Assembly (NCBI GenBank): GCA_028277205.1
Contig: JANQGT010000004.1
Coordinates: 1-40,347 of the forward strand
DNA length: 40,347 bases
Reading direction: 5' to 3'
DNA from: Candidatus Altimarinota bacterium
GTDB lineage: Bacteria > Patescibacteriota > Gracilibacteria > BD1-5 > UBA2023
The translations under genes were made by a program, and so were the position numbers. Every line of letters begins with the position of its first letter. The stretch's first letter is position 1. Positions 3,436-33,409 of this stretch are shown one piece after another. The notes below the pieces were generated by a model. That model made no database searches, had not been told where the DNA came from, and saw nothing but the letters and a program-made list of their open reading frames with translations.

Positions 3436-3511
3436 TGGTGGGTCCTGCGGGGATCGAACCCGCGACCATCGCCTTAAAAGGGCGCCGCTCTACCGACTGA
3501 GCTAAAGACCC
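3436..3511 (-). tRNA. tRNA-Lys (anticodon UUU)
   Basis: The minus strand folds into a full cloverleaf of 76 bases. The acceptor stem GGGTCTT pairs with AGGACCC (one G-T pair). The D-arm is GCTC-AGTCGGTA-GAGC. The anticodon loop CTTTTAA gives UUU. The T-arm is GCGGG-TTCGATC-CCCGC. The 3' CCA is encoded in the DNA. It decodes lysine codons. It is not the tRNA-Gly(UCA) expected to read UGA, which is not in this window. Confidence 0.95.
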
Positions 3512-3525
3512 GAAAAGGTAGGCGC

Positions 3526-3553
3526 ATTGTATGAAAAAGTCCCTGCTTGTCCA
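3526..3553 (-). promoter_or_regulatory. Putative tRNA-Lys promoter
   Basis: TGGACA (3553-3548), 16-base spacer and TACAAT (3531-3526) on the minus strand, ending 14 bases before the mature tRNA 5' end. Its position makes an upstream start for the giant plus-strand gene at 3531 less likely. Confidence 0.6.
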
Positions 3554-3596
3554 GAGCTTCTTTTCAGACATTTTCACGCAACTCTTTTTTTACAGA

Positions 3597-6500
3597 ATGA
3601 GAAAAATATGGTATCATCACCGCAAGTCTCGTCCCCTCAAGATTATCGCATCCGTGCTCTTCATCGATCGCATCGTCATACGCCGCGGACAGCAGACGCT
3701 TTCGTGGCTGCTGATCGCCGCCATCCTCATCCTCAATACCGTCCGCATCCCCTTCGAGGCGGCGAGTGCCGAGGCACAGGTCCGAGCAGTCGATCTGGTC
3801 TCGCTCATCGTCGAGCGCGATCTGTACACGGACTCGACACGCGATCTGGTCGATCGCTATGCCGAGGATATCCAGGCGGCGCTGCCTGATACGCGTGCGG
3901 CGATATTTATCATAGATTCGGACATCCACCCGCAAAACATCGCCGCCCTCAATGAAAAGCTCTACTACGAATGAGACGGCACGGGTGTCTCCCAGCTGGT
4001 CGGGACGATCCTCATCGGCGATGTGCCGCTGCCCGTCGTCCATGATAGCGGCACCAGTTTTTTGTCGATATATCCGTACATTGATTTTCGTGAGAAAAAT
4101 TTCATTTTCGATGAGTCGGAGGGAAAATTTGTCAAACGCGAAAACGACATAGCGGACGCCTCGCCCGAGGTATGGCACTCTGTCGTCGCGCCGAATACCG
4201 GCGATGAATCCGAGGATCGGCGCAGACTCTCAAATTTCTTTGAAAAATCGCACGAATTTCATACTTCTCAGGGACGATTTTCCGAGCGGCACGATCCTCC
4301 GTATGTGTTTTATTTTGATGCGCATCACGATCAGCTCTCCACCAGACTCATCAGCTGGGAGTCATACTCGCGCTACCTCGAAAATATCGAGAGCTTTGCC
4401 TACAATCGACACAACAAACACCTCGCCGAAGAGCTCTACGAAGCAATGCAGTCAAACATGACGACGATGCTCGGTGGGACGGATGCGCGTATCCAGGAGC
4501 TCCTCGCGGCGCAGGGACTCTCCGGGTCAGATGTGGATTCGGGAATGAGATTTTCCGCGATGCCGGATGTCCAGAGCAGGCGCGTCATCGACAAAACAGT
4601 CGAGCCGTTTTACGGCATCCTCAATCCGACATACATCGGCGATCTGCTCTGATACGCCAGAAATACGGGACGATACGGCGCGACCGAAAATGTGCGCGTA
4701 GATATCGCGAGCGTACTGGTGGCAAAGCAGGACGAACTCATCCGGGAAATACTGCGATCCGGCAACACCAGTGTCGAGGACATGATCGACTCGATCATCG
4801 AAAAATCCATCGCGACGCCCCTCTACATTCCCACGAGATACGATGTCGACATCACGATCACCAGCACGTGAACTACGAACAGTGGATGAACGAGCGGCGG
4901 ATGAGCGAGCAGTGGATGAACAGGCGGCGGATGATGAGCAGCCACAGGATGAACGAGCGGCGGATGATGAGCAGCCACAGGATGAACGAGCGGCGGATGA
5001 GCGAGCAGTGGATGAACAAGCGGAGGACAAACAACGACCCGAACGCAAAAAGCCGAGTATTCATATCAAAACTATCTCTACGGACGGCGCGCCGATACCG
5101 TCACTCATCCAAAACACTGCAGCATCGCTCGCGGAAGCTCGCTGGTCGTGGAGGCAAATCGAGGATTCAATGTGCTGCACTCTCAAGAAGATGCCGATCT
5201 TCTTTTCGAGGATTTGCCCGAGGGACAATGTTTCGCTGAAGGAGAAGCGAAGACGATGGTCTACTGGTGAGGAGGATCTCCCCTCAATCTCGACATGACC
5301 TCCATAGCTGGGGGAGATTTTGACATGAAGCTGCGGGAGCGTACCAATAAGTGATTCATAAGACCCGCTTTCGATCTCAGGGGTTCTCGAGAGATTCCCT
5401 TCGTAGCACCGCTCGAGACGGATCCGAGCGCGGGACATGCACCGACGGTCTCGGGCTCCGGCATGAATGCGGCATCGAGCGGATCGGGTGTCGTGATCGC
5501 TCCGCCGCCGGACGAAAATCTGCAAAACACTACAGCACCGATCCGAGTAGCATCGCCGTTTGACTGCTACGACGGGGCGATGGTGCTCCAGCCCTATACG
5601 CAAACCTCGTCGTCCTCATCCTCGGACGACAGCAGTGCCGGACAGACCACGACGACATACTACCCGGAGGAGACCGGAGGAGGACGTCTGAGCTGTATCT
5701 CCGAGATCCGGACGATGGCTCCGCCCAGCTATGAATCCGTGATGAGCGCGGATGCATGACCGTGCGTCATCGACACGGTCATCCTGGACGCCTCGACTGT
5801 GAAACAGCAAGGCGCCGCATGTACCACGTCTACGCAAGACGAAACCACCACCACGCAAATCAAGCGGACATTTGAATTTCGAAGTGTGTCATCCGTCCTG
5901 GAACACAAATCGCCCACCGACTCGGAGCTTTCGGTCATCGCCTGAAATCTGGTCACGCCGTCCATCCCCATCGATCGGGATCGGTACGTCGATTTTCTGG
6001 ATGCAAACGGAGACTACGCAAAAATCGTCTATCCGAATTTTTTTCGTATCGATATCGATGATCTCTCGAATCTCAATCTGGACTTCGCACGCACGAAAGT
6101 GATAGAGCTGCTGGATCAGACGAGTGCGAGTCTCAATGCAATCCCAGGCTCCCCGGGCGATATCGACCTCACGGCGAGACTCGAGTCCACACCGGAAGTC
6201 CTGGACACTATCACCGAAAGCGTCCTGTGGAACAATCTCGACAATATCACGGCAAAGTACGCTTTCGCACTGGAAAAGCAACTCAATGAAGACGCGATTC
6301 AGGATGACGCGATCTCTGATCATAAAGAGGACTACGAAATCGCGTCCCTCATCAGCACGGGAGAAGCCGAGGCAATGTATGTAAAAGTCGATCCCGAGAC
6401 GACATCCGAGCCGCCCGCGAGCATCGCGGGAATCATGCAAAGCGCAAACGAATATCGCAGCGCCCGCGACGCAAGCAACGTATGAGTATGAGTGGGCAAT

Positions 6501-9500
6501 AGAACTATACGATGAGTCGGCACAAGCGCATGAAGCGGCGCATGAAGCGGCGGATGAAGCGCTCAGTTTGAGTGCGGACCGCCCGAGGGTGTGCCGATAT
6601 GGGAATGGCTTCCGGCGATATTTTGCTGGCTCGGGACGATCCTCCCGCCGACCATCTCGGCGGGAAGCTGCTCGGAGACGTCGTTGCTTGACTATTTTCG
6701 TGATGACTTTGAAAATGACTTTAGCGGTCCGGTGGGCGACGGAGATGCGAATGGCATTTTGGACGCCCGCGAAGCGGTACGCTACGGCTCGATAGACCTC
6801 TCGTCCGATGCCGTCACACTCTCGCACTCCACGAGCGGAGAGCTGTCCGCGGTCATGCTCTCCGAAGCATGAGAAGCACTCGCCTATGATTCATTTTCCC
6901 GGGTCGAGTTTTCGGTCGATCGGGTCGTCGATATCGAGAACGGCGAACGCGAAATCGTCTACGACAGTAGCGACGAAACACTCGACGATCCGGAAAATCT
7001 GGAGCCGTACGTACAGTTTGCGAGTGCCGAGGTGCCCGTCACACAGGGGCGCGCCGGGTACGCATTTTCTACGAAAAATCGGGATAGCGACATCACATTT
7101 CAGGCGCGCGTAAACGGAGAAAATGCCCAGGGCGAGACCGTATTTACCACGCTGTCAAATCCCGTCACGGTACGCGTACGCGCCGACAGACTCCAGGTGA
7201 CAGAGTCGGTACGCACCGACGATGACAGTGATTATGAGATCGGGACGCATTTTATCGCGGGAAATCCGTACGGTGTTCGATTTGATATTTCACGGCTTGA
7301 CAGTCACGGCAGTCCCGTAGAGCTCTCGGGCGGACTGCGGTATCGCCTGTATGACGCGGCGGATCGTCCGATCTTTGAGGGATCTCGGGATATCGAGGGA
7401 TCCGTCCTGCAATTTGGCGATCCCATCCTGCGCACCGCCGGATCCTACCGATTCGAATTTTTCGATGCGGACGGCTTGCGCGTCGAGCATACTTTTACCG
7501 TGCTGCCCGCCCCGCCGAGTCAGCTCGACGTCACTCCCTCGACGAGCGTCCATACGCCGGACGAGAGCGTGTATATCCTCATCCAGCCGCGTGATGTATT
7601 TGGAAATATCGTCAATAGCGAATTTTTGACCATACGGGGCGAGATCGTGGGCGGACCGGGACGATTCGTCGACCAAGACGGAAATCCGGTCGAGACGCTT
7701 GAGCGCACGAGCTTCGAGGGATATACCACCTACGAGCTGCGATCGGACGAGATCGGCGAGACGAGTTTCAAATTTCGCATCGTAGACGAAGCTGTCGAAA
7801 CCCCCATTACTTCGATAGAGACGACCGACTTTGCGCGGCTGTCCGTACAGGTGGAAAACAGTGATCGCATCACCGCGTGAGGCAGTCCCCACGCCGTCGC
7901 ACTGCGTGTGACGGACGAGGACGGCGCGACTCTCAGAGGGTACAATGGCGTGGTGGCGCTCGATTTTCCCTCGGTATCAGGACAATTTCATCCCGCGTAT
8001 GTCCAGATCGTCGACGGAGAAAACCGGCAATCCGTCACATTCACACCGGGATACGTCGCGGGAAATGACATTTCGGCGAGCATCGCGCTGCCGGGCGTCT
8101 CGCAGATCTCGTGAAATACGCTGACCGTCCTGCCGGACGCGGCGATGGAGATCGCACTCTCACTCGAAAAGGATGCTGTTGAAGCGGAGTTTGGCACATC
8201 GAATGCGATCACCGCCACCCTCTATGACCGCTATGGAAATCTGGCATGGAATCACCGTCCCATGTCCGCCGAGTTTTTCATCGAGGAGCAATATCAAAAA
8301 TTCGTCCGCCTCGAGGGAAATGCGAGCAGCGCAAGACGACAGTTTGAGCAATGACGAGCCCGGATGAACGCGATCGCGACGAGTCTGCCGGGGACAGCGT
8401 ATATCAGCGCGCGTACGACGCCGGACCTCTCCACCCAGAGCTTTACCGTCACGGGACGGGCGTCCGGCTCGGATGCTGCGACTCTCACGATCAGCGGTCT
8501 CGGAGCGGACGCGGTGCGATTTGATTCGTACTATCACTATGACGGCGAAAAAATCCGCGGCAACCATTACAATGCGCTTTTTTCGGTGATGGCGGGCGCC
8601 GACTACGGCAATATCACCGTACCGGGATATCTCGCGGGGGAGGCGGTATTTGATGCGGATTCGCGCGCCCTCGCCGTCTCCACGCTCCTGGGGCGTCCGT
8701 ACTCGCGCGATGAGATGTTTTCTTTTACCTCGGCATGACAGTACGAATCCGGCAATGGCAGTCTGGCTGTAGGACTGGAGGCGAGTATCGTCGAGCGGGA
8801 CGGTGCGACCTCGCTTGATTTTTATGACTCCGTCACACGAGAGCGCATAGCGCGCGCCGATATCAGCATGAGCAGGGCAGTACTCGTCGCCTGCGATCAG
8901 CCCCGATCAAATGCGGTGGAGGCATGCGGTATCCCGGCGGATGCGGAGTCGTACATTCTGGCGGCATCCCTCGCCAGAGGGTCGCGCGTCGAAACCGTGG
9001 ACGGCGTGATGTCGCTGTCGATGGGAGACACCCGGATATTTTCCGTCGATGAAACCGGTGTGATCGACCGAGCGCCGACGACACGATTTGAGATCGATCC
9101 GAGCGCCCCGGGAAATTTTCTCGGAATCCGGGTTTTCGTCAATCGTACTCCGGTCTGATACCTCGCGTACCGGTTTTCCCGGATGCGCGTCGCGGATCAG
9201 AGCGCCGAGCTGTCGTTTTCGGATATATCCGCCCGATACGGGTACGAGTATATCTATGCCGGAAATTCTTCGAAAGCCGAGAAAGGAATCCGGTTTTACC
9301 GAGCGGATACCGGAGGCGCCGACGATATCGACCGGAAAAAAGCCGGTCCGTTTCAGTCGGGACTGGAGTACGCCACCGAGCGTACCGGTATCGGCTGGGA
9401 GGGGGACAATACATTTTTACTCGAGTTCACGAGCGGCGGCACGTCTCTCGGTGATGCGACACGCGCATACCAAAGCTATCTCGGCATCACGATCGGCGAT

Positions 9501-12500
9501 CCCACCATATCGCTGCCGGTACGTGCGGATGCAAAAAAATTTGATCAGGGAATCGGAAAGCGCCTGTACAATAACAGTGCGGATATCACCGAGGCGTCGA
9601 TTCCACTTGACTTCAATGGAGACGATGCCCCGGACATTGCCGTATTTTCGACCAATGGAGCTATCCGCCTGCTCGCCAATACCGGCGGAAAATACCGGGA
9701 TATGGGATACCTCGCCTCCGTCGCGGACGCAGGCAGACGCCGAAAAGATACGGGGGATTTTCGCGGTGACGGCTACGACGACATCGTCATGGCAGACGAG
9801 GATCATGTCATATTTCTGCTTGAAAACACCCGGGGAAAATTCGAGCGCAGACCACTGCTCGTATTTGATGAGGGCGCCAGTGCGCCCAGACGATTTGACG
9901 TGGGCGTCATGCAGCTGCAGACCTACGACATGGACGTGGACGGATATACCGACATCGTGACAGTAGACGAGGCGGGAGAGCTCAATATCCTCTACGGTCG
10001 CGCCGACGGTCGCTTTGATAAAAAGCTCATCGACTCGGGATTTGGTGTGCGCATCACCGGAAAGACACGCTCGACCGAGGGCGCCGTGTATTTCGACGGA
10101 CTGCGGCAGATCACCCCTACCGAGCAGCGGGACTTTTTGGTAGAGTCGGAGGCACTCCGGCTGAGTACCGAGACCGACGTCAGCGGATGAATGGACGAGG
10201 CGACGGCGCGACGTCTCGTCGATGCTCAGATCTACTATACCGAGACGCGACAGACCCTCTCGCAGATCGAGTCCGTCCCCACGACCGCGGATATCGCAGG
10301 CTCGGCGGGTACGGACGACTCGGGAGCACCGCGAGAGGATATCGCCGAGAGCGTGAGCGCGGGCATGGCGAGTATCGAAGCCATGGGAGGTACGACGGAT
10401 TTCCTGGTGCCAAAGCGTACGATAGAGAGCCGTACGTATATCCGATCCGAATACGCCGAGGGAGAAAATCTCCGCGTCGAAAAAACCTACACCGACAGAA
10501 ACGGTGACACACTCCAGACAGACGACATCGTGGACGTCACCGTACGCCTCACGAATACGGGCGATGAAAATCGCACAAACGTCGAATACCTCGACAGCTA
10601 TGAAAAAAATGTCTTTGATCTGCCGGATACCGCGCAGGTCAGCCTCATCCAGTCAAATGGCGAAGAAACGACACTTTCCTATGATCCGCTCGTACAGGGC
10701 GAGTACGATCTCTCGGTCGACGTCGGAGAGCTGCCCGCAGGGGCGTCGGCGGAGTTTTCCTACACGCTCGAATCCCGACCCATCGCCTATGGAGAAGTCC
10801 TCGTGGGCGATCTGGGGTCTGATGCCGGCCACGGCGAGATCGCCGTACGCGCCAATAACGTCTGCGGCGAATCATACACCGCATGGCACTCCACCGAGCC
10901 GTATCCCCGTACCTATGCGACGGAAACCCTGGACGTCGCAGAGCCGGCAAGTCTCCCGAGTCCCGTCACGGAGGATCTGGTCGATGCCGATCAAAACGGT
11001 ATTCCCGATATTGCCGAGGCATTCTCCGATTCGGATGGAGATATCTCCGAAGAAGACCTCGACGCTTTTGCCGAGTACGCCGAAGAAGCACTGGACGAGT
11101 ATCAGTCAAACGAATATGTCTTTGCTTCGTGAACGCAAAACTCCGCCGATCTTTTGGTGTATGACGAGGACTCGGATTCTGTCGATGTACTGGGCATGAG
11201 CAGCGCCGATGTGGACAGCATGATCGCCTCGGTCAATAATATCGTCGAAGGACTCGGCTGCGGATTTGGTGGTGGATCCTGTCTCTCCATGCCCCTAAAC
11301 TGGGCTCCGCTCGCGCCGGGATCGGCACCGACCATCTTTGGATTTCCGGCGGGCATCCTCGACCCGTCGACCGGTATCCCGATATTTTCCGGGATCAACT
11401 GGGTCGGACTCTGACCACTGTGTCTCCCGGGAGTATGGCCGCCACTCGTACAGCTGCCATTTCCGGTCTGTGGAGGCACCGGAGCCGGAGGATTTCTGGG
11501 GACGCTGAGTCCTACGAATGTGTTTCGGCTCTATATCACTCCGACACTCACGCTCGGGGTCGGGGTCGCAGCATGCTTCGGAGGACCGTCGGCGATCGTC
11601 GGACGCGTCCCTCCTCCGGGAGTCTCGCCGCTCGTCCCGGGCGGAAACTGCGTAGTCGCCGCCCGCCCCCTCTGGAACTGCGAGGCGGACGGATCGGACG
11701 GCGACGTCGGAGAGTGGTCATACACCGCCCCCGGACACTATACCAATGCCGGATCATGCACACCCCAGAGCCAGCGGATCGGCTACGCCGCCACTCCGGA
11801 GGAGCGCCAATCGTTTCAGGAGCGCATGATGGCATACATATCGGGAGACAGCTCGGTCCTCAGCTCACTCTGAGCCGATATCACGAGGGGGACGTCGAGC
11901 GATTTTACCAGTGGACAGCCGCTCATCAGCTCGGGTCTCCCGGGAGGCGGAGGCGATCCAAATCTCGAGGTCGAGATCGATACGGACGCGCTACAGGATT
12001 TTGATTTTGAAAATGTCGTCAAAATCTCGCTCGATCGCATCCCGGCATTTCCCGATTTTCTCATGGAGTGGGTGACCCGACAGCTGGAGGAGATCATAAA
12101 CAAGCTCACCTCTCTCCCCACACTGTATATAATTCTTCCTGACTTTTCACTGTTTGAGACGAGCGGATGGGTCGGATTCACAGACAAAATCGAGCAAGCA
12201 TACGATGACGCAGCAGCGGAATACGAGGATATCGATCCGACATTCGACACCGATACGGGATTTGAAGAAGTGGAGGCAGTCGAAGGAGAGATAAACAGTT
12301 TTCTCGCATGACAAAGCGACAATATCAATACTATCGGTCGCAATATCTCGGGCATCAAAGCGGCGTATGAATTTCTCTCCAATCTCCCGCTACTCTCCAT
12401 AGAGCCGGAAACCGTACATGTGCGCATCCCCTGGATCCCTCCGGAGGATATAGAAAAATGGATCCTGGACGCCGAGGCGACGCTCAAGCAGTGGGAAGCG

Positions 12501-15500
12501 GAATTTGACGAGACAGTGGAAAACTGGGAACAACTCGGGACAGAAGAGGGCGCCCTGGAAAAAGTCAATATCGAGGCAGGAGCACTCCTGCAGAGTCTGC
12601 GCGCAAATATCCAGACACTCAAGGAGTATAAAGAATTTCCGGAAAAGCTCCTGCGATACCTGGAGTACAAAGAAATCTACGCCGAGCAAATCCTCTGCAA
12701 TATCGAGGCGATCGAGTTTTTCCTCGGAGGTTGGCTCGCGGAAAACGCCGCGCGATTCCGTGCGTGGGTGGAGCTGTATATCCTGATACGCGCGATCCTG
12801 GAGGGGTGGCAGCTCATCATTGATATCTTCGTAGAGTTTGATGCAAACTGCGGCGTCTGCCGAAACGAGCGATGGGATCTAAAGCATTTTCTCATCAAGC
12901 TGCTCTCGATGGTGATTCCCGATCTGCCCATCATCATCTTTCCGAAATGGCCCGATATCATCCTGGATCTGCATAATATCCGTGCGGGACTCGTGGTCCC
13001 GATACCGGAGTTTGATTTTGATGTGACGCCGCTGGTCCTCCCCGCTCTGCCGGAGCTCGATCTCCCGGATGTCCCCACGCTCACGCTCGCGCTCCCCGTA
13101 CTCCCCCTCCTCCCGAAAATTCCACCGCTCCCATCTCTGCCAGACATTCCGAGCTTGCCGCTGCCAGAGCTTCCGAGCTTGCCGCCTCCCCCGACGATTC
13201 CTGCGCTCTTTGGTATCATAGAGATGGCACTGCAGATCCTGCGGCTCATCGCGCTTATTATCTGTATTTTACGCACCAATCCGTTTGCGCCAGAGTGGCG
13301 CGTCGGTGATCTGATCGCACAGCTCACGGAGCGACAGGGGACGCTGCCGATCGACTTTCTGTTTTTGGAGTTTCCGCAGTTTTCGATGAGCTTTATCGAC
13401 GCGATAAAAGTGACGACGTACGTCAATCTGGAGTTCGAGCTTGATTTTATCATAGAGATGGCGAGCTCCACGATGAAACCATTCAATACTTTCACGGCAA
13501 ATCTCTCGAATGCGACGAGCCATGTAAAGCTCTTGGATCTCGACTTTAGTGGCACGATCCCGGAGGATATAGAGATCGACGCCTCCACCGGCGAGGTGCG
13601 CGGTCTGGAAGACGTGGGCGAGCTGCCGGAAGCACTCGAGGGTCTGGAGGGATTTGCGCCGACGCACGAGTATATGCGTGAGCGTCTGGGCGCGATCGCG
13701 CATTTCGCATCGGGATCGCTGCATCGGCTGGCTGCGGGTATGCAGTCCGAATCCGAACGCATGCTCTCGGTCTCGGAGCTCTCGGACGAGATGGCGGCGC
13801 AGATTCCAGCGCTGAAAACGATCGCACCGGATATTGCCGCTCGATTTGAGGCGGCGGTATCCGCCGGCAGCGGGGACGCGGACGAGATCACCGCCGAGCT
13901 CCAGCAGACGCAGCGTCAAAAGTTTGACGTGCTCAAATCGTATATCAGGGAGGACATGCGCCGAAACAACGAGCGGATGGCGGAGCTTCGAAAGATTATC
14001 CAAAAAGAACATTCGCTCAGCGAACTATCGTTTATCCAAAGGGATCTACCCCACCTCATCACGATCATCGCAAATACGCAGGCTGAAGACGAACTGCGAA
14101 AACAGGCAATCGAGGGCGAACTGAGAGCCCTCAATGATCGCATCGCCGACCCGCTGTCCCGTATCCTCGATCCCTCGACCGACCCCATGATGCGAGAGCT
14201 TTCGCAGATGCGCACGAAAGCACTCTCGCAACTCCATGAGGCTGGGAAGTGACGCAACACATCATGAGCCCTCGCACTCGGGGATACCGCCTCGTCCGCA
14301 TCATTTTCACTCGCGGCGGATACGAGCAGTGCATCCGGTACATACGATATCGCAGACAGCTACCGCTACAACTACGAGGGTATCTACTACCTCGACGCAG
14401 GGGGAAATCAGACGAGACTCTTTAATTATACAGAGCTGCTGACCGGACGCGAAAAGGCGCGCGAGCTCGACATCGACGATGATGGTGATCGGGATCTCAT
14501 CTACACGATGAACAATATCACCTACCTCAAAACGAATCATACGAATACTCCCGAGTCCCGGCATATCACGGATGCACCGCGCACGCGCGATCTTTCGGCA
14601 TTTCTCGGCATCGATGCGGACGACCCGGTCGCCGCAGGCGCACCGGAAAATTTCTCGGAGGATTTTGCCACGACAGGACGGATCAATGCTTCTTTTGACG
14701 CTGCCGATATCCGAGAGGAGCAGCGATACCGGCTCGAGATGTACGACTACGTCGATCGATTTGATCGGGTAAAATCCGGCGAGACGCCGCGATCCATCAC
14801 GCCCGCCACCGCGCGACAGTACGTGGATCTCGTCACGCGTGACGATAGCGCCCTCGTCACCGACAGTACGCGTACCGGTGCCATCATCGGACGCGCTCCC
14901 GCCCGAGTGCGCTCATCGGTCGGCGACATTCGCATGCGGGGATTGAGTCTGGAATTCGTAAATCCAGGGGAGACCATCACCATCCGCGCCGGAAGCCGCG
15001 TCTATGCGGGAGGAGGAGGAGCGGAGATTTCATACCTCCGCAGCACGCAAACAGCATCCGAAACCGTCACACTCGCACCAAACGCCTGGATCGAATTTTC
15101 CGCCACGACGCAGGTATCGGTCTCGACGGGGCGACTTGTACTTCTCTCAGAGTCGCTTCGTGATGGGATCATGCTCGGACCGGACGAGCTCTCGGACATG
15201 CCGATCGTACCGGACGTACGACTCTCCGTACCCGAGGGGGGACGCATATTTCTGGAGTACTTCGATGACGGACGACTGATCCTGGACACGCCGAGCGAGT
15301 ACGAAATGTACGATCTCGGCGAACGGGACGGGGACTATAGCATCAGCCTGGATCGACCAAATGGTCTTTTCTACGCGCGACTTGCGGCATTCGACAAATC
15401 GGGTGAGCTCGGTACGTGGGCGTCGCAGACGCTTCTCTCGCCCCAGACTGCGGCGGATGCCACTGCGCCGTCCATTCTCGCAGGCAGTCGGATCCGCATT

Positions 15501-16520
15501 CCCGTGTATCAGCCATATACACTCGATCTGCAGGGAAAAATCACCGATCTGGGGACGATCACGCGTCTCTGGCTCGATATGGATCTGGATGCGGATTCGG
15601 ACGGCGACGGCAATCCGAAAAACGACAATGATTCGCTGAGTGATTCGCTCGAGGAAAATCTATCGTACGGCGCAACCACGCGCATAGATGAGGACGGTAT
15701 GCCGACGCTTCAGATTGATTTCACTCCCTATGATGAGATCATGGAAAAAACCGTCCGTCTCTTCGTAGAGGACGATGCCGGAAACATCGCAACGAAAGAC
15801 ATGACTCTGTCGGTCTATGCTCCGACACCGATCATCGAGGGCTACGACGGCGAGTCTACTGTCGTATGACGTCTCGACGAGTCACTGGAGGACATGCCCG
15901 TTGATCTCTTGCGCTTGCGAAATGGATTTATCACGAAGGTCGATCCAGAAGAAGAGGCAGTACACACCGGCACGGGCGGACGCTACGAATATACCGAGTC
16001 CGGCTCCGGCGGAGCGCTCATATCCCGTGACGGCGAGACGATCGCAGCTGTCAATTTCAAAACCGGGCTCCTAGAGCTCGTAAACGGCGGCGGCTACACT
16101 ATCAGAGCCCTCGCACGCGATGGAGAGCGGGACATGCGCCTGGAGCTCTCGGACGAGAGCGGTATAGTCGTATACCGCCAGACATTCGGACTGCCGGCGG
16201 GGACGCGCATCATACCCATCGCGGATTTCTCGGCGGTCTCGACGGACGGAGCATACCTGCGCGTCATGGATCCGGCATTTCGCTACGAGCCAAATGATTC
16301 TGATGCTCCGGTGCTCCCGGACGGCGGATTTCTGGTGCGATCGGACGGCACGGCGATCGTAGGATTTGACGAGAGGGGGCATATCATCGCGGTCTCGGAC
16401 TCGGACGCCGAGCTCGTCTACGACCGACTGGAGGATTTCATCCTCATGCGCGTGCAGAGCGGCGAAGATACTGTCGTAGAGATACTCTACCGTCTGGACA
16501 TCGAGTACGCGATACGATAG
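3597..16520 (+). CDS. Giant multidomain surface protein (about 4,307 aa), UGA-rich
   Basis: One frame stays open from 3597 to the TAG at 16518 with about 38 in-frame TGA codons and no TAA or TAG. Residues 1-34 are basic and 35-49 hydrophobic (LSWLLIAAILILN), a signal anchor or signal peptide ending near AASA. Visible regions: Gly/Thr/Ser linkers at about 425-480 and 963-988, written largely with TGA; Ig-like beta domains of bacterial Ig (Big_1) style at about 1300-1505 (DVFGN, then GEIVGGPGRF); FG-GAP/VCBS-like repeats at about 2000-2145 (DFNGDDAPDIAVF, DFRGDGYDDIVMA, DMDVDGYTDIVTV); Asp-rich calcium-loop-like motifs near 1046 (GDGDANGILDAREA), 2461 (VDADQNGIPDIAEA) and 4000 (DADSDGDGNPKND); a Cys/Pro-rich block at about 2560-2710; a Leu-Pro repeat at about 3140-3205; a helical, probably coiled-coil part at about 3400-3550. 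It is most likely exported and cell-surface bound. Adhesion or host contact is inferred from architecture. The ATG at 3597 is chosen because the one at 3531 lies in the tRNA promoter. Confidence 0.85.
4878..5025 (+). repeat. Minisatellite encoding a UGA-dense Gly linker
   Basis: Two perfect tandem copies of a 33-base unit lie at 4925-4957 and 4958-4990, flanked by a second near-identical element (starting at about 4892 and 4988). In the gene frame the region has 11 TGA codons in about 50 codons. Read as Gly it encodes a Gly/Thr/Ser/Ala linker. Because the units are multiples of three, copy-number change would only alter linker length. Confidence 0.8.
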
Positions 16521-19635: not shown

Positions 19636-20010
19636 TCCCCCAAGGCAGGTACGCGCCCGCCAACGGCGGGAGGAAAGTCCGGACACCGCGGAGGCAAGCA
19701 TAGCGGGTAACGCCCGCGGTCGCGTCGCATGACCAAGGACGCGATACGGCAAGTGCCACAGAGACGATACTCTTCCCGGCTTTTTTCGGGAAAAAAGGTG
19801 AAAAGTCCCGGGGTGGGCATGCCCTACCCGGGAGCGTCCAGACGGACGCCGGTAAACCCTATGCGGTGCAAGAGGAATGGTGCGCGTCGCGCAATATCCC
19901 GCCTCCGGGAGCGCGAGCCGCGCATACCTCGCTCGAGGTTCCGAGTGATCGGGATCCCAGATAGATGCGTATCGATATACAGAATCCGGCTTATTCCCTC
20001 GGGGGTCCTT
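19636..20010 (+). ncRNA. rnpB: RNase P RNA, bacterial class A
   Basis: The universal P4-side sequences are present: GAGGAAAGTCCGGACA at about 19670-19685 near the 5' end and ACAGAATCCGGCTTA at about 19979-19993 near the 3' end. Between them are typical elements, including GGTAAACCCTA and GGTGCAAG around 19850-19870. A CCCCC run at the 5' end can pair with CGGGGG at the 3' end as helix P1. The RNA is the catalytic part of RNase P, which matures tRNA 5' ends. The ends are set from P1 and the promoter and may be off by a few bases. Adenylate kinase follows 20 bases later and may be on the same transcript. Confidence 0.93.
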
Positions 20011-25909: not shown

Positions 25910-27316
25910 ATGTCCCCAAAAAAACTCATCGTCCTCACCATCGCCGGAGTCCTAGGACTCGGTGCGATGATCACCATAGCACTACTCGGAAATCCCGGCG
26001 ATCCGCCCCCCGCAGATGAGGATACGCAGGATCAGGCACCCGAGTCGTTTTCGATCTGGATACTGGAGGATGAGACGGCGGGCTACTCCGATATCATCAC
26101 GGGATTCAGGGATCGATATCCGGAGTATGCAGATACCGAATTCGAGCTCACGAAATTTCCAGACTGGGAGGGATATCGTCGATTGCTGCTGCTTGCGATC
26201 ACAGATGGAAATTCGCCCGATGTCTTCATGGTGCCAAATAACGGCGACGATCTCTTTGCATCAAAGACATTTGCGATCCCGCCGGAGGCTGTGAGTGTCG
26301 ATGACTTTTCAAAAAATTTCGAACGCGTATTCGACGAGCTGGTCCTGACAGAGACCCTGACAGACGAAGAGGGAAACGCAGTGGAAAGCTACGCACTGAA
26401 GGGAATCCCGATGGGATACGAGACGCTGGCACTATACTACAATTTTCGACAGGTGCGCGTCGTCCCTGAGACGTGGAGTGAATTTAGCGAGGACATCGCG
26501 GAAAACGACAGTCCGGACTACGCGCCTGTCGGTCTCGGACTCGGTCCGGACTACGTACCGCTCACGCCCGATATCATCCAGCTCCTGCTGCTGCAAAACG
26601 GTATCAACACCTACGAGAATATGGGAGAATCAGTCGGACTCGCCGCGCTGTCCGGATACCGATCATTTGCAGAGGAAGAGAAAAATCCGGTGAGGAGTAT
26701 GCGCGAAAAAATGGATGCGCTCTATTTGGATGTCATCGATCTCTTTGCACGGGGAGAGATCGGCATGGTCGTCGGATACCCATCGACACTCGAGCAGATC
26801 CGCGAAGCCATCAAGCGCGCCGACAGCGAAGCGGAACTCTCGGAGCGATTTTTGCGTACGGCGACGATCCCCCAGCTCTCCACCGACCCCGAAACCCCGG
26901 GACGAAATCTCGTCTCGTACCGGTATTTCGTCGCATCCCGGTTTTCGGATACGCCCGATATGGCGTTTGATTTTCTCTCGTATCTCGCATGACAGGAGGC
27001 GCAGCGTGCGTATATGGAGGCATTTGCCTATACACTCCCGGCACTGCGCGCACTCGAGACCGAGCGCCGAGAGGATGCCATCACCGACGACATACCGCGG
27101 GTACGCTACGAGCATTTTCTGGACTCGACGGTGGAGCGTGCGAGTTTCGATACCGGTCTGCCGGAGAGCTTTGATACCGGTATGCGATTTCTTTTCGAGC
27201 GGGATGATACTGATCTGGGCGAGCGAGCGCGTAAAACCGCAGAGTATATCTCGTGTGAGTACAGTCGCTTCGTAGAGGGAGAAAATCCGCAGTCACCGTG
27301 CATTTTGGTGCCATAG
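25910..27316 (+). CDS. Membrane-anchored extracellular solute-binding protein (family 1-like)
   Basis: A 468-aa protein with one N-terminal hydrophobic segment (KLIVLTIAGVLGLGAMITIALLG, residues 5-27) and no lipobox cysteine, so it is probably held by a TM anchor. The rest reads like an ABC sugar-binding protein: SFSIWILEDE at the start, GNSPDVFMVPNNGDDL, GIPMGYETLALYYNF, PETWSEFSEDIA and a late MVVGYPSTLEQI. One TGA (26990-26992) is read as Gly in SYLA-G-QEAQ; without it the last 107 residues would be lost. No permease or ATPase is next to it, so transport is not shown; it may bind a ligand for another purpose. Stop TAG, followed by a strong terminator. Confidence 0.75.
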
Positions 27317-27415: not shown

Positions 27416-30400
27416 ATGGCTTTCACACGCGTTATTTTCGGGATATTCTGTATTTTTCCGACATTTTTCTTTTCCGTGGCTCCGGCATCGGCAGATGTTT
27501 GTTTCTTTGGTGTCTGAGGCGGCTGCGACTCATGAGACAGCGTCCCATACTGCGACGACGAGACCTGCACCATCGAGGAGGGGATCAGTATCGTCAGAGA
27601 GGGCATCAACGATATCGAGACAGAGCGCACGGCTTCACAGTATATCCAGGACGTGCTCGAGTATCTGCTCGTATTTCTCGCGATCGTGGCGGTGCTCTAC
27701 GTCATCTATGCGGGAGTGCGAATACTGACATCCGGCGGAAACGAGGAGGCGATGAAGGAGGGCAAGAAAAATATCATCTCGGTCGTGATCGGAATCATCC
27801 TCATTTTCCTCGCGTATTCCATCGTCCGATTCATCATCGATACGGTCAATACGGGCGATGCGGGTACGACCGTCGGTACGGGTATCTTTATCACTCAGGC
27901 GTACGCCCAAGAGGCAGGTTCAAACGACCCTTCGAGAGCTCAATCCTCGGACTATCAGATTTTACCAAATACATTTGCGGAGAGTGAGCCGTTTGAAAAC
28001 GCTCCCGACATATCCACACCCGCAAACATCGCTCCGACGGATACCGACGGAGGCGCGACGATACGGGAATCCCGGGATATCTGATCGCCCGTACGAGTGG
28101 CAAATACCTCACCAAATACCCGCAGCATCGACTTTACAGCGTCGATCCGCAGTACGACCACCGCGACGGATACCCAGTCATTCGACGGATACGCCACGGC
28201 GATCCAGCAGATCATGGCGACGATGGAGCGCGAATACACGATCGAGTGATCCATTTCCATCTCTACGCTCCGGGAGCTGCAGGAGCTCGTCCGGGAGGCA
28301 CGCACGACATTTCCCGATGAGCGAAATACCATTTTCAACAATAATCTCGCGACTCGCGTCGAAACCGCCATCGAGGTGCTGGCGCGAAATCCGGAATCCG
28401 ACGAAAATATCCGGGATCTCGCAGAGGCACTCGTCAATTTCCTCGAAAATATAAAAATCGAAGAGATCTCCGGTACCGTCGAGGTCACGCCGCGCGAGGG
28501 AAATGCCCCGCTCACCGTCACGCTCCGGGCGGTCAATGTCGTCGATCCGTCGGGGATCGTCATCCCGGAGGACAATTTCGTCTGGTGGATCAAAACCGCC
28601 GAGAGCGGTCAAACCGTCATCGGCAGATGACCGAGCATATCGCATACTTTTCGCGAAGAGCGGGTCTACACGGTGTTTCTGGCAGTACGATCCGCCAGTC
28701 GAAACATCGCGTGAAAAACAGACATACGACCACTACAGACCAGTACTCTCGTGTCGGTACAGCCGAGAGTCGGTACCATCCGACTTTTTTTGAACGGCAA
28801 TGACGTGACGGATCTGGATCGATTCAAGGTCACACCGCGAGAATGAGCGGAGGGAGTGCTTTTCGATGCGACCGCGACCGAGGTCGGCGGCGGGACGAGG
28901 ATTCTTTCGACATCGTGGAATTTTGGCAATGGACGATCCGTGCGTCGTACCGGAGCCCCGAGAATAGAGGAAGCCGTCTACGCCACCGAAGGCATCTACG
29001 ACGTATCGCTCACCCTGCGAACCAATGAAAACACGACCATCAGAAAAGAGCTGGAGGTGGAGGTGCGCGATCCGATCGCCCGCATTCGCACCGACTCTGG
29101 CGAGAGAGTGGCAAATGTCGGAGATGAGATGCGATTTTCCGCATCGACAAACTATAGCGATCTGCAGCTGCGGTATTTTTGGGAGGTGATCGATCTCGAG
29201 ACCCGGGAGGTTGTTTTGACCTCATCGCAAAGAACGATTTCCTACGCCTTTCCGGCGATCGGAAAATACCAGATCCGCCTGCGTACCACCACTCCCCTCG
29301 CAAAGGAAGATACCGACTCTGTCATCATCGAGATAGAGCCAAAGGATCCCATCGTCGGATTTCAGTCGCGCATCGAAAACTCCGAGCTGCCGAATGTCGT
29401 CACATTTGACGCGACGCAGAGCTACGATCCCGATACCTTTACAAATTCGAATCTGCAATACGAGTGGTCGATCAACGGAAATGCGGTCATACTGGACAAT
29501 CCGAGTCGAAACGGAGCAATGGGGCAGTACACCTTTACTACCAGAGGAACCCACCGCATCCTCCTGCGCGTGACAAATCAATCGGGACGCACCGTCACAA
29601 AGGCGCGCGACATCACCATAGATTCGCTGCTCTCGGTACGCCTCGCGACGACACCGAGAATCGCGAGAGTCGGAGATGCCGTCTCATTTATCGCCGATGC
29701 TCCGAATGCTCTGGTATACGAATGGAATTTCGGCGACGGTGAGGACGACACGACCAACATCGGACGAATATCTCATACCTATAAACAAGCCGGCTCATAC
29801 CGGATAACACTGCGAGTGCGCGCCGCAAACTCGCGCGAGCAAAACTCGATCACTCGCGAAGTCTACATCACCGAGGCAAATGCTCCCTTTGCGGTCATCG
29901 ACATGTCGCAAAATTCCGAGCCGCTTTTCCCGACATCCGGGGCGTGCGGAGACAGACCCGCATACATCGTCACCCGCGAATATCCCGTCCAGTTTTCAGG
30001 AGCCGAGAGTGTCAATGTAGAGGGGCGATCGACGAATCTGGACTCCGTATGGCAGTATGCGGGAAATACCTCGGCGCAAAATTCATTTTCCTATCGATTC
30101 GACGAGCTTGGGTGTTTTCCGGTATCGCTCACCGTCATCGACAAAGAAACCGGAAAACGCAGCACGCGATCGACATACGTCTCGGTCCGAAACGTCCCGC
30201 CGGAATTTTCCGCTATCCAGATAAACGCTGATACCGAACAGGATCCGGTCGTCGTGAATGTCTCTGCGACAAACGCGAGAGATCCGGACGGCGTCATCGT
30301 CTCATACCTCTGGTACTACTACACCGACAATGATCCGGAGCCGCAGGATTTTCGCATTACCCGGACGCCGCAGACATCGTTTGTCATTCCGAGAGTGACG

Positions 30401-33400
30401 GGGACCTACTATTTCGGAGTGGTGCTCGAAGACTCAAACGGTGCGAAAGTCAACTCTATGGAGGTACGTGATGAGCGCTACTCGCTGAGGATGGCAAGCG
30501 ACAATATCAATACTCCTCTACTCCAGCTCTCCACATCAAGCAATTCGATCTTCGCATGAGACGACGTGTCTTTCGACGTCACGGTAAAAAACGTCCTGGG
30601 ACGCGATATCACGACGAGCGCCGAGTACGAGTGGGATTTTGACGGAGACGGATTTTATGATGAGACCACCGAAACACCCCGCGTGACGCACACCTACGAT
30701 CGCCCCGGCACATTTACTTTTCGCGTCAAGGCGACCAATAAAGGACTCTCGAATACAAAGACCGCACAGATCACCGTACGAAATGTCCTCAAACCGGATT
30801 TTGAGATCGTCACCATCGGAGGTGAAATCGCCCTTTTCAATACGACGCAAGGAGTCTATACGGACGCATCATGGAGCGCCGGAGACTGGGAATCCGAGGA
30901 GAATTTTTCGGTCGTACATGATTTTGGCGATACGCTCCCGCAGACCGTCACGCTCACTGTCACCGACGGCGAGAGCACCCGAGAGCTCACGAAAATCATC
31001 TCCCCGAATCGACGAAATACCCTCCTCGTCGAGCGCTATCCCGGCAGCCTCATCGTCTTTAGTGTGCCGGATCTGCGACAGGGCGCCATCACGATCGAGC
31101 GCCCGGATCAGCCGCTGTACATCTATCTGGGAAAGTCGAAGGGAAACATCGCCCGCTATGAGATCGACACCGACGTCACCCTCGATTCAAATCTCAACGG
31201 AACCCCGGACGACGACGCCGATAATTCGAATACGGCATCTCTCACAGACGGATCGCCGTACGTCATCCGAAATATCTCGGACACCGATCCCTCGCGTACG
31301 ATGCGCATAGCCCTCTATGATGAGGATGGAAATCTCATCGACGACGAGGAAATCGAGATCATCCTCGCCTACAATGCGCCATCGCTCGCAGAAAGCGAAC
31401 TCGAGTCAAAGACGCAGATCTCCTCCGCCATCGCCGAGCGTGACCGCGTGGCGCTCGCCGAGCTCAAAGATCTCATCCGATCAGGCTCAAAGGAGCATCG
31501 TCTGTATCTGATGGAGCACCTCGCAAAGCTGCAGGAAAGCTGGTTTGACGAGCGGGAAAAGACCCGCGCCATCATCGATTTTCAGGAGTATATCGCCGGG
31601 ACAGCATCCATCCCCGACTCCGAAAAAGCGCAGTACTACGGCTATCTGGACGGCTTTCTCTTTTCCGACGAGCAGACCGAGGATGAGATCGCGCTTGCCA
31701 CATCGGTCATTCGAAATCTCGTCCCGAAAGACAATCCCCGCTACGACACGATCACGCAAAATCTCTCGGAGATACTGTCCCATCCCACCGACACGCCGAC
31801 AAATCGCGAGCTCGGACGTGAGATCCTGGAGATCGTCAGAGCCGACGAGTCCATCTCCGTCGAGGACAAGCTCATCATCCGCGATCAGGTAGAGGTCATC
31901 GTCTACGGGGGACTCGAAAATATTCCCGATGACATCGCAGACGGACAGCAGGAAACCGAGTCCGGAGGCATCATCGCCTCTATCATCTCCGTCGCTAAAT
32001 GGATCGCATTCGGATTTCTCGGGATCGTCGGATTCTTCGTATTGCTCTTTCTGGTGCTCTTCACGGTCTTTCAGTTTTCAAACAAAAAGAAAAATCTCGG
32101 ATTTCAGGACTATGTCATAGAGCTCTTTACGAGTACGGAAGTCCCGGGAGCAAAGGTCGAAAAACCCAAAGAAAAGCCGAAAGACGAGAAAAAATCAGAA
32201 ACGCCGAGAGTCGATCCGCTTGCCATCGCAGCATCGGACGAGAGCGCGACGACGAGCGAAACTCCGCCCGCAGAGACTCTTTCGGCAGAGCCGGAAACAC
32301 CAGATACGACGACGACCGAGACGAAAACGAGCGAGGATACGCAGGACACGGCGATACCGAGCTGGCTGCGTGGAGCGACGGACGAGACCGGATCACCCGA
32401 TGCGAACACACCGGAGTCGACGGATACTTTGTCTGCTCCACCTCAGAGTGAGAGCGGTGATGCGGATGCGGCGATACCGAGCTGGCTACGCGAGAGTGCC
32501 ACCAGCACACCGGAGACTCCGACGCCCGGCGACACCCCCGCGATCCCGGACTGGCTGAGGCAAGAGGGACAATCGGATACTGTCGCCCCGGATATTTCCT
32601 CCGAGACTCCGAAAACCGAAGAAACGCAGACGCCAACCGAAGAGAGTGAGTCCGCTCTAAATACGGACGCAACAACGGAACAATCGGATGAAGCTATCCC
32701 CGACTGGCTGAAAGATACCGACAACAAGGCACTGTCACTCGACTCCGAAAAACAAGAGCAAGAGACGGACTGGGGCGATATGCCGATCATCACGGATGAA
32801 AATACGCCGCCCTCCGGTGAGAGCGGGATAGACGGATCCGAGGCATGAGCCGATACGAAGACCGACTCTACAGCAGTCAACGCTCCGCAAGATACACCCG
32901 AATCATCCGATACCACCACCACTCCGGCACCGAGCGAGACGGATGACAGTATCCCAGACTGGCTAAAGGGATGGGAAAAGGATGCTCCGAAAGCGGACGA
33001 TACGACGCCATCCACGACGGATGAATCAGTCAGAGTCATCCAAAAAGAGCCGGGTCAGGACACAAAAACCGATGAGCAATCAGACGAGAAAACAGAGCAA
33101 TCAAGCGATCCAAATACTGCACCGACCGCCGATGACGATCTGCCGGACTGGCTCAGAGAATGGCAAGAGCAAGAAGCGCAAACCGCCAAATCGAACTCAA
33201 AGCAAAGCGAAGTCAGTACAAACGACGAGCCAAAAACAGCAAAAAAATCAAATGCGCAAGAAGACGGTGCGGATACTGTGGCACAGCAGACGGACACAGA
33301 TGAAAAGCCACGCACACGAAAACCGCGCACAAAAAAGCCCAAAACCGAGACCGCCGATACAGCGGAAAAACCGAAGCGCACACCGAGAAAAAAACAGACC

Positions 33401-33409
33401 GGAGAGTAA
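27416..33409 (+). CDS. T4SS-pilin-like / PKD-repeat / IPxWL-tail membrane protein (1,997 aa)
   Basis: One frame from ATG 27416 to TAA 33407 with nine TGA-Gly codons. Order: signal peptide 1-26 (ending APASA); a Cys-containing segment (residues 29-53); a two-helix domain at about 79-141 (YLLVFLAIVAVLYVIYAGVRIL, then SGGNEEAMKEGKKN, then IISVVIGIILIFLAYSIVRF), closely resembling the T4SS_pilin/VirB2-like proteins common in CPR genomes; a helical segment; at least six beta domains with PKD traits between about 350 and 1190 (WNFGNG, YEWNFGDGEDD, YEWDFDGDG, HTYKQAGSYRITL); a charged helical part at about 1325-1500; a TM segment at about 1522-1556 followed by NKKK, placing the tail inside by the positive-inside rule; a low-complexity acidic Thr/Ser/Pro tail with six IPxWL-type motifs; and a Lys/Arg-rich end. 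The fusion is unusual. Probable role: a surface appendage or contact protein linked to the cell interior (inference). Confidence 0.85.

Follow-up and report, generated by a model that had tools for sequence, protein, structure and literature searches.

A T4SS-pilin-like domain joined to a PKD array and a motif-bearing tail: a candidate envelope tether in Gracilibacteria

Introduction

Gracilibacteria are tiny, host-dependent cells. A locus of one member of this class raises the question of whether a pilin-like domain can truly head a giant PKD protein and, if so, what such a protein might do. The window analyzed here is a stretch of 40,347 nucleotides from a Candidatus Altimarinota bacterium (assembly GCA_028277205.1, contig JANQGT010000004.1). 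An initial annotation, made from the sequence alone, read positions 27416-33409 as a T4SS-pilin-like domain fused to PKD repeats, a further TM helix and an intracellular tail. We have followed up this reading with profile searches, structural models and comparisons across the class and the phylum. The gene content of the source genome was checked through searches only, and six-frame HMM mapping replaced the unreliable gene calls of its GC-rich contigs.

Results and Discussion

Architecture of the fused protein

The main gene (Table 1) contains nine TGA codons that are translated as Gly in code 25. The family alignment has invariant or nearly invariant columns at three of the residues encoded in this way (G405, G433 and G477), and thus, the reading of TGA as Gly is sound. 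The hydrophobic segments of the protein are residues 1-26 (the signal peptide, with an equivalent segment at the N-terminus of the full-length orthologs), 75-108, 115-146, and 1516-1557.

Table 1. Position of the main gene, its encoded domains and motifs, and the upstream gene in the window.
Feature	Coordinates	Strand	Evidence
Orphan SBP gene, 468 aa, N-terminal TM helix, maltose/oligosaccharide-binding fold	25910..27316	+	Pfam and AlphaFold
Main gene, 1,997-aa pilin-PKD-TM-tail protein (code 25)	27416..33409	+	
Signal peptide, residues 1-26	27416..27493	+	Hydrophobic run, ends ...APASA
T4SS_pilin domain (PF18895), residues 71-140, two TM helices and cytoplasmic loop, GGNEEAMKEGKK	27626..27835	+	Profile matches; loop consensus
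Conserved linker domain, residues 235-350	28118..28465	+	Purpose-built HMM (HELN)
PKD array, residues 351-1170	28466..30925	+	Pfam PKD_4/PKD/K319L-like_PKD
Ig/FnIII-like domain with Asp-rich loop, residues 1216-1340	31061..31435	+	Class-wide matches of profile A1 fall here
Helical domain, residues 1345-1502	31448..31921	+	AlphaFold model
Third TM helix, residues 1516-1557	31961..32086	+	Hydrophobic segment
Cytoplasmic low-complexity acidic tail, basic C-terminus	32087..33406	+	
Tail motif 1, IPSWLR	32354..32371	+	
Tail motif 2, IPSWLR	32474..32491	+	
Tail motif 3, IPDWLR	32543..32560	+	
Tail motif 4, IPDWLK	32696..32713	+	
Tail motif 5, IPDWLK	32951..32968	+	
Tail motif 6, LPDWLR	33140..33157	+	

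The pilin-like character of the N-terminal domain, proposed in the initial annotation, has been borne out. The domain matches Pfam T4SS_pilin (PF18895) with 42.0 bits (cut-off 26.6, E 1e-10), which is the top match to this profile in the whole genome, and it also passes, marginally, the cut-off of NCBIfam NF045849 (Mbov_0395 pilin-like conjugal transfer protein; 40.6 versus 40 bits). The VirB2/TrbC profile (PF04956), named alongside PF18895 as a check, stayed below its cut-off on the 1,997-aa protein (21.8 versus 27.9 bits). The loop between the two TM helices is charged and cytoplasmic. Its consensus reads GdEEkvkKaKK across 43 fused domains and GNEE..KAKK in stand-alone pilins, and this conservation in the fused domains exceeds the needs of a mere anchor. 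The NCBIfam PamR "CPR pilus" system (NF058578) was rejected as a candidate, since its match reached 24.2 bits against 300 and was confined to the PKD-like region.

Following the pilin domain, Pfam detects PKD_4 (166 bits) and PKD (141 bits), and the block of the array at residues 830-1025 is homologous across the class. The helical domain has no solved relative by sequence and gave no confident fold match in the PDB.

Conservation of the fusion and its genomic context

The fused gene is found in 21 of the 23 informative genomes of the window's family (f1), and relatives with the same architecture rule out a one-off fusion or an assembly artifact. In the two other genomes (G016 and G017) the gene is split: the pilin gene lies directly upstream, and the PKD half, which has its own signal peptide, starts just ahead of the linker domain. 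Every full-length fused protein among the 21 members scanned (19) matches T4SS_pilin with E <= 0.001; in the remaining two members the gene is split, and there the separate pilin product matches this profile too. The splits of G016 and G017 are independent and derived, and only these two genomes of the family have a stand-alone version of the domain. The initial annotation had named a separate N-terminal gene in close relatives as grounds for refutation; G016 and G017 do have such a gene, but because their split is derived, it does not refute the fusion. In addition, both splits provide the PKD half with a signal peptide and the tail motif described below is confined to the tails, so that the topology suggested from the sequence, i.e., PKD array outside and tail inside, is supported.

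The same order of pilin domain, PKD array, TM helix and tail that the initial annotation had read in this single ORF thus recurs in relatives, and the fusion also occurs in other families of the class. On the evidence of sequence comparison, it is a class-wide architecture, not a one-off. Most often it directly follows single or triple-pilin genes: triple-pilin genes precede it in nine other families (f6, f8, f18, f20, f22-f24, f26, and f27) and single ones in f12, f17, and f19. Family f2 has kept the PKD, TM and tail regions, and the linker profile is found in most of its genomes, but the pilin domain is absent; therefore, this domain is dispensable in f2. The idea that the rest of the phylum has such a pilin-PKD module was also considered and discarded, since strong full-module matches of profile A3 appeared only inside the class, and the 12 loci inspected outside it encode generic PKD proteins, none with a fused pilin.

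The initial annotation proposed to look for VirB4/VirB6-like genes nearby. Neither VirB4 nor another T4SS gene is found in the window, but T4SS genes flank the homologous locus in two other families of the class: VirB4 adjoins it in f17 (G041), and PrgI and TrsD-like genes adjoin it in f8 (G044). In the source genome, VirB4 sits on contig C3, and the main gene adjoins neither VirB4 nor stand-alone pilins.

A one-sided motif in the cytoplasmic tail

The last 440 residues are rich in Ser, Thr, Pro and acidic residues, carry six [IL]P[DS]WL motifs and have a basic end. When this tail was shuffled 20,000 times, no shuffle contained more than one motif. Across the relatives, [ILV]P[DS]WLK occurs in 186 copies in 51 tails versus one copy elsewhere in the same proteins. 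The Trp is present in all 186 tail copies, and the residue before it is mostly Asp. When the PDWLK tail was sought beyond the class, its C-terminal form turned up in none of the 380 genomes of a phylum-wide draw, which itself contained few family members. In eight families of the class, the gene for the pilin-PKD part encodes no PDWLK tail.

The neighboring solute-binding protein

The gene that ends 100 nt upstream of the main gene encodes a solute-binding protein (SBP) that matches Pfam SBP_bac_8 (52.6 bits) and SBP_bac_1 (43.8 bits). Its AlphaFold model has a pLDDT of 89, and the top PDB folds are oligosaccharide-binding proteins. This gene is directly upstream in 21 of the 23 family genomes; G016 and G017, in which nothing but the split-off pilin gene separates it from the PKD gene, are counted among these. 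In other parts of the phylum, 24 of the 29 best loci have the SBP gene ahead of T4SS pilin genes; in the sampled genomes of the class outside f1, it is never beside a pilin.

A role for the SBP in a normal ABC importer was rejected, since no PF00528 (BPD_transp_1) permease was detected in the source genome, which is 93% complete. This permease is missing from 22 of the 28 genomes with the SBP, the source genome included, and present in the other six; all 14 controls of the search were positive.

Proposed role and alternative explanations

For the 1,997-aa protein, which the initial annotation had likened to a receptor or an appendage base, we propose the role of an envelope-spanning tether or receptor that belongs to a T4SS-pilin system, linking a pilin assembly, the outside of the cell and a putative cytoplasmic partner that binds PDWLK, and we give this reading a probability of roughly 0.4. 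According to it, Sec would insert the protein and the signal peptide would be cleaved, leaving the pilin domain in the cytoplasmic membrane as a hairpin of two helices, beside or within assemblies of stand-alone T4SS pilins. The C-terminal end of the hairpin would lead the PKD and Ig-like stalk outside, and the third TM helix would bring the chain back to the cytoplasm, where the several PDWLK motifs of a presumably disordered tail could engage one folded partner, resulting in multivalent binding. The membrane-anchored SBP might act together with the complex outside the cell, where it would most likely recognize a host or matrix glycan. The pilin match and its retained loop, the pilin and T4SS genes beside the locus in other families, the topology, the position of the SBP and the missing permease speak for this reading. 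Against it, the third TM helix, lying in the same membrane, holds the fused chain at both ends, so that the pilin domain is unlikely to leave in a filament and would have to remain at the base. The distance of the gene from VirB4 and stand-alone pilins in the source genome, the loss of the pilin domain in f2, the SBP away from pilins in the sampled genomes of the class outside f1, and the eight families without the PDWLK tail also count against it.

The pilin-like hairpin might instead be a membrane anchor only, in which case the protein would be an ordinary giant PKD surface adhesin without a working T4SS link. The loss of the domain in f2, which kept the rest, and the lack of VirB4 or other T4SS genes in the window agree with this, as do the giant membrane proteins with PKD domains reported in Vampirococcus (PMC8080830). 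However, the loop signature has been retained, pilin genes precede the gene in many families, and on splitting, the pilin persists as a separate gene in place; we regard this alternative as somewhat unlikely.

The conserved multivalent motif strictly on the inner side and the binding-protein fold next door could also suggest a signaling receptor, in which the PKD array and the SBP bind a ligand outside and the clustering of the PDWLK tails changes, signaling to a putative cytoplasmic partner. This is decidedly unlikely, since neither the chain nor the neighboring ORFs scanned gave a match to a kinase, HAMP or other signaling domain, and constitutive tethering accounts for the same data.

The orphan SBP might be thought to pass its cargo to a T4SS-like channel rather than to an ABC permease, given the SBP-pilin gene pair across the phylum and the absence of a PF00528 permease from most genomes with the SBP; yet sugars are not among the cargo of the known T4SS relatives, which transport DNA and protein. 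In addition, SBP folds often serve recognition alone, and the SBP is not beside a pilin in the sampled genomes of the class outside f1. Such nutrient uptake is very improbable.

Finally, the tail can hardly be a copy of the FtsZ C-terminal peptide (D-[IV]-P-x-F-L-R) serving as a putative tether to FtsA or the division site: the two share the succession of an acidic and a hydrophobic residue, P, x, an aromatic residue, L and K/R, and FtsA and FtsZ are present, but the family FtsZ ends in DVPAFLRNK or a close Phe variant wherever it was read, and the tail motifs invariably have Trp.

The tether reading could be part of a larger picture, although an unlikely one as a whole: a hitherto unrecognized type of Patescibacteria appendage, in which an orphan oligosaccharide-binding protein is coupled to T4SS-type pilins. 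The coupler in Gracilibacteria would be the pilin-PKD-TM chain, its PDWLK tail docking the machine to a dedicated cytoplasmic partner, and recognition or uptake would proceed via a conjugation-derived machine instead of ABC importers.

The fused protein is a new testable candidate for how Gracilibacteria contact other cells, and it bears on the host contact of Patescibacteria and on the role of their relaxase-poor T4SS. The handles that result are the conserved envelope protein with its pilin head, a linear motif that is short, strictly one-sided in location and usable as bait, and the SBP-pilin gene pair, which is phylum-wide and occurs in genomes mostly without ABC importer permeases.

Comparison with known systems

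Our literature search found no published description of a pilin-PKD fusion or of the PDWLK motif. This agrees with the initial annotation, which knew of no described protein with this order of domains; the protein is nevertheless not unique, being conserved in its family and class-wide.

The related predator Vampirococcus lugosii has giant membrane proteins whose adhesion domains include PKD (PMC8080830). Like the window protein, they are very large membrane surface proteins with PKD among their domains; the accessible part of that report does not mention a pilin domain, a tail motif or a pilin operon. The Ig-like RSP proteins of IncHI plasmid conjugation, extracellular and with a Big domain, are likewise large Ig-fold proteins that serve a conjugative T4SS, and what is available of their description (PMC8730810) mentions neither a pilin fusion nor a tail motif.

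The SBP shares its fold with the maltose/oligosaccharide-binding proteins of ABC importers; it differs from them in lacking a PF00528 permease in the genome, in its placement with pilins and, in f1, in its TM anchor.

Arrays of T4SS VirB2 pilins have been described in Patescibacteria (PMC12102498), and a pilin array is essential in Ca. S. epibionticum (PMC10633639). These arrays belong to the same pilin family and phylum as the window protein; what is available of their descriptions mentions no pilin-PKD fusion or SBP neighbor. In other classes, pilin genes of this type lie downstream of the same SBP as at the window. With T4SS_pilin (PF18895) and Mbov_0395 (NF045849) proteins, the window protein shares an over-threshold profile match, two TM helices, a charged cytoplasmic loop and a signal peptide; the stand-alone members seen here have about 110-240 aa, whereas the window protein adds 1,850 residues comprising the PKD array, the third TM helix and the tail.

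Domain organization of the fusion protein

The initial annotation had described the main gene as a T4SS-pilin-like domain fused to PKD repeats, a further transmembrane (TM) helix and a long tail, and this description is correct at its coordinates. Three of its TGA codons (G405, G433, and G477) correspond to invariant or nearly invariant glycines in the family alignment. The pilin assignment of the N-terminal domain was borne out by PF18895 (T4SS_pilin), which residues 71-140 match with 42.0 bits (cut-off 26.6), and the same residues match NF045849 with 40.6 bits (cut-off 40), but the TrbC/VIRB2 profile scored under its cut-off. PKD profiles match C-terminal of the pilin domain, and the hydrophobicity pattern shows a signal peptide, a two-helix hairpin, a third TM segment at residues 1516-1557, and then a 440-residue tail.

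Features of the contig (SBP, solute-binding protein)
Feature	Position	Strand	Description
tRNA-Lys gene	3436-3511	-	
Large ORF	3531-16520	+	4,329 aa, code 25, 38 TGA read as Gly; single FG-GAP_3 match
RNase P RNA (class A)	19637-20009	+	
SBP gene	25910-27316	+	TM-anchored protein of maltose-binding type, oligosaccharide-binding fold
Main ORF	27416-33409	+	1,997 aa under code 25, nine TGA codons

The large ORF has no counterpart near the pilin-PKD gene in 22 relatives.

Fusion and splits of the pilin domain

The part of the protein that follows the PKD array was used to search 27 genomes of the window's own family (f1), whose named relatives are Candidatus Gracilibacteria. One good match was found in 23 of them, with a second, weak match in G005. 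Nineteen of the 21 full-length family proteins, that of the window included, have an N-terminal PF18895 match, the exceptions being those of genomes G016 and G017. When G011 (3' end cut) and G001 (partial), both carrying the fused domain, are added, the pilin is fused in 21/23 informative genomes. In G016 and G017, a gene for a PF18895 protein of 143-146 aa separates the SBP gene from the PKD gene, and the latter starts with its own signal peptide. Since this signal peptide takes the place of the pilin in both splits, it provides independent evidence that the PKD part is extracellular.

A tree built from the PKD-to-helical part common to these proteins places the split genes in separate starred pairs (G016 with G013; G017 with G004). 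The protein of the outgroup family f3 is fused, and three state changes are enough to explain the pattern. Thus, the fusion is most simply the ancestral state, followed by two independent splits and a loss in family f2. The separate N-terminal gene considered in the initial annotation does exist in two relatives, but there it is most simply derived. In the pilin tree, both free pilins are nearest to the fused domains, although these sequences are short and the resolution is low.

Architectures across the class

Mapping our own HMMs onto about 40 loci of class Gracilibacteria revealed several arrangements: (a) the fused pilin-PKD-TM-tail protein in f1, f3, and f8 (also f21, with the 5' end cut); (b) a pilin-PKD protein plus a separate Ig-TM-tail gene in f4, f12, f17, and f19; (c) a pilin-PKD protein without the PDWLK tail (see below), behind two triple-pilin genes, in f6, f18, f20, f22, f23, f24, f26, and f27; (d) a small pilin plus an Ig-TM-tail gene in f7; and (e) a PKD-TM-tail protein in f2, where the gene lacks a pilin domain and roughly 5-10 kb of upstream sequence showed none. 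A profile built from the C-terminal part matches all f2 and f3 genomes drawn from the order, with most of the profile covered in nearly all of them; in many other families the match is to its Ig-like domain. The pilin genes upstream of pilin-PKD genes are single-domain in f12, f17, and f19, and triple-domain in the type (c) families and f8. The triple-pilin proteins (310-375 aa, longer stop-to-stop; loci L146-L152 and L205-L207) have three T4SS_pilin-like domains in a row; in many families of the class, their genes come in adjacent pairs, upstream of pilin-PKD genes.

The VirB4 gene that the initial annotation had suggested looking for nearby lies, in the window's own genome, on another contig (C3), but in an f17 genome (G041) about 1.6 kb separate it from the tail gene. 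In an f8 genome (G044), PrgI and a TrsD-like gene are a few kb from the homologous locus. The stand-alone and triple pilins of the own genome are encoded on different contigs from the main gene or at a distance of 100 kb. Its contig C52 (L057) carries, at 5126-9717, tandem-pilin genes directly upstream of ftsA and ftsZ on the same strand.

The PDWLK tail motif

The tail repeats a short motif with the consensus acidic-acidic-[ILV]-P-[DS]-W-[LM]-[KR]-G. Across 51 tails, 186 copies were counted, versus one in the remainder of the same proteins, and 186/223 tail tryptophans lie inside a motif. The window tail has six, versus at most one in 20,000 shuffles, and the main gene is the only match of a degenerate DNA pattern in its genome. 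The f2 PKD-TM-tail protein has up to eight (f2/f3 loci L134-L145). A terminal PDWLK-stop was found in 14/288 genomes of the class draw and in 0/380 of the phylum draw. Eleven are family members, all at the main-gene ortholog; in G049 and G117 the match is the end of a homologous tail gene, and in G086 that of a fragment resembling the tail, located on another contig. The terminal copy is missing from the window protein and its sister in G026, both of which finish with a basic stretch. The recurrence of this short, conserved motif within a low-complexity tail that lies on one side of the membrane implies a putative cytoplasmic binding partner.

The neighbouring solute-binding protein

The SBP gene is directly upstream in 21/23 family genomes, including the two with only the split pilin between. 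A phylum-wide alignment search detected the SBP in 140/192 genomes, in single copy each. Of the 29 best loci outside the window (L209-L237), 24 have a same-strand T4SS pilin gene no more than 1.5 kb away, in most cases immediately downstream. Given about a dozen pilin clusters in a 1-Mb genome, we estimate that roughly 1% would have one by chance. Within the class, the sampled genomes outside f1 did not show this adjacency. Such SBPs serve permeases of the BPD_transp_1 family (PF00528). Because PF00528 was absent from 22/28 SBP-bearing Patescibacteria genomes tested, among them the window genome and 12 of the 13 other family genomes, whereas it was present in 14/14 control genomes, the SBP is probably not part of any classical importer, with the caveat that these genomes are incomplete.

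Proposed role and comparison with known systems

We propose that the main protein may be an envelope tether or receptor, whose pilin hairpin would join or contact assemblies of T4SS pilins at the membrane. The stalk of PKD and Ig-like domains would face outward, as would the SBP, with which the protein might associate, perhaps for glycan or host recognition, and the PDWLK tail would dock to a cytoplasmic partner. The hairpin could instead be a mere anchor, but this is made less likely by the pilin loop signature, which it retains, and by how often the gene is placed next to pilin genes. Export of the protein in the filament is disfavoured by the third TM segment.

We found neither the pilin-PKD fusion nor the PDWLK tail nor the SBP-pilin pair described in the literature searched, which covered few subscription papers and preprints, and the pilin-PKD architecture may already be present, uncommented, in domain databases. 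Published reports describe VirB2-type pilins and pilin arrays in Patescibacteria, which are essential in one cultured member (PMC12102498, PMC10633639), and large PKD-containing surface proteins in Vampirococcus (PMC8080830). The layout of the tail motif is like that of the FtsZ C-terminal peptide, but they differ at the aromatic position, since the FtsZ of the family has DVPAFLR whereas the tails always have Trp.
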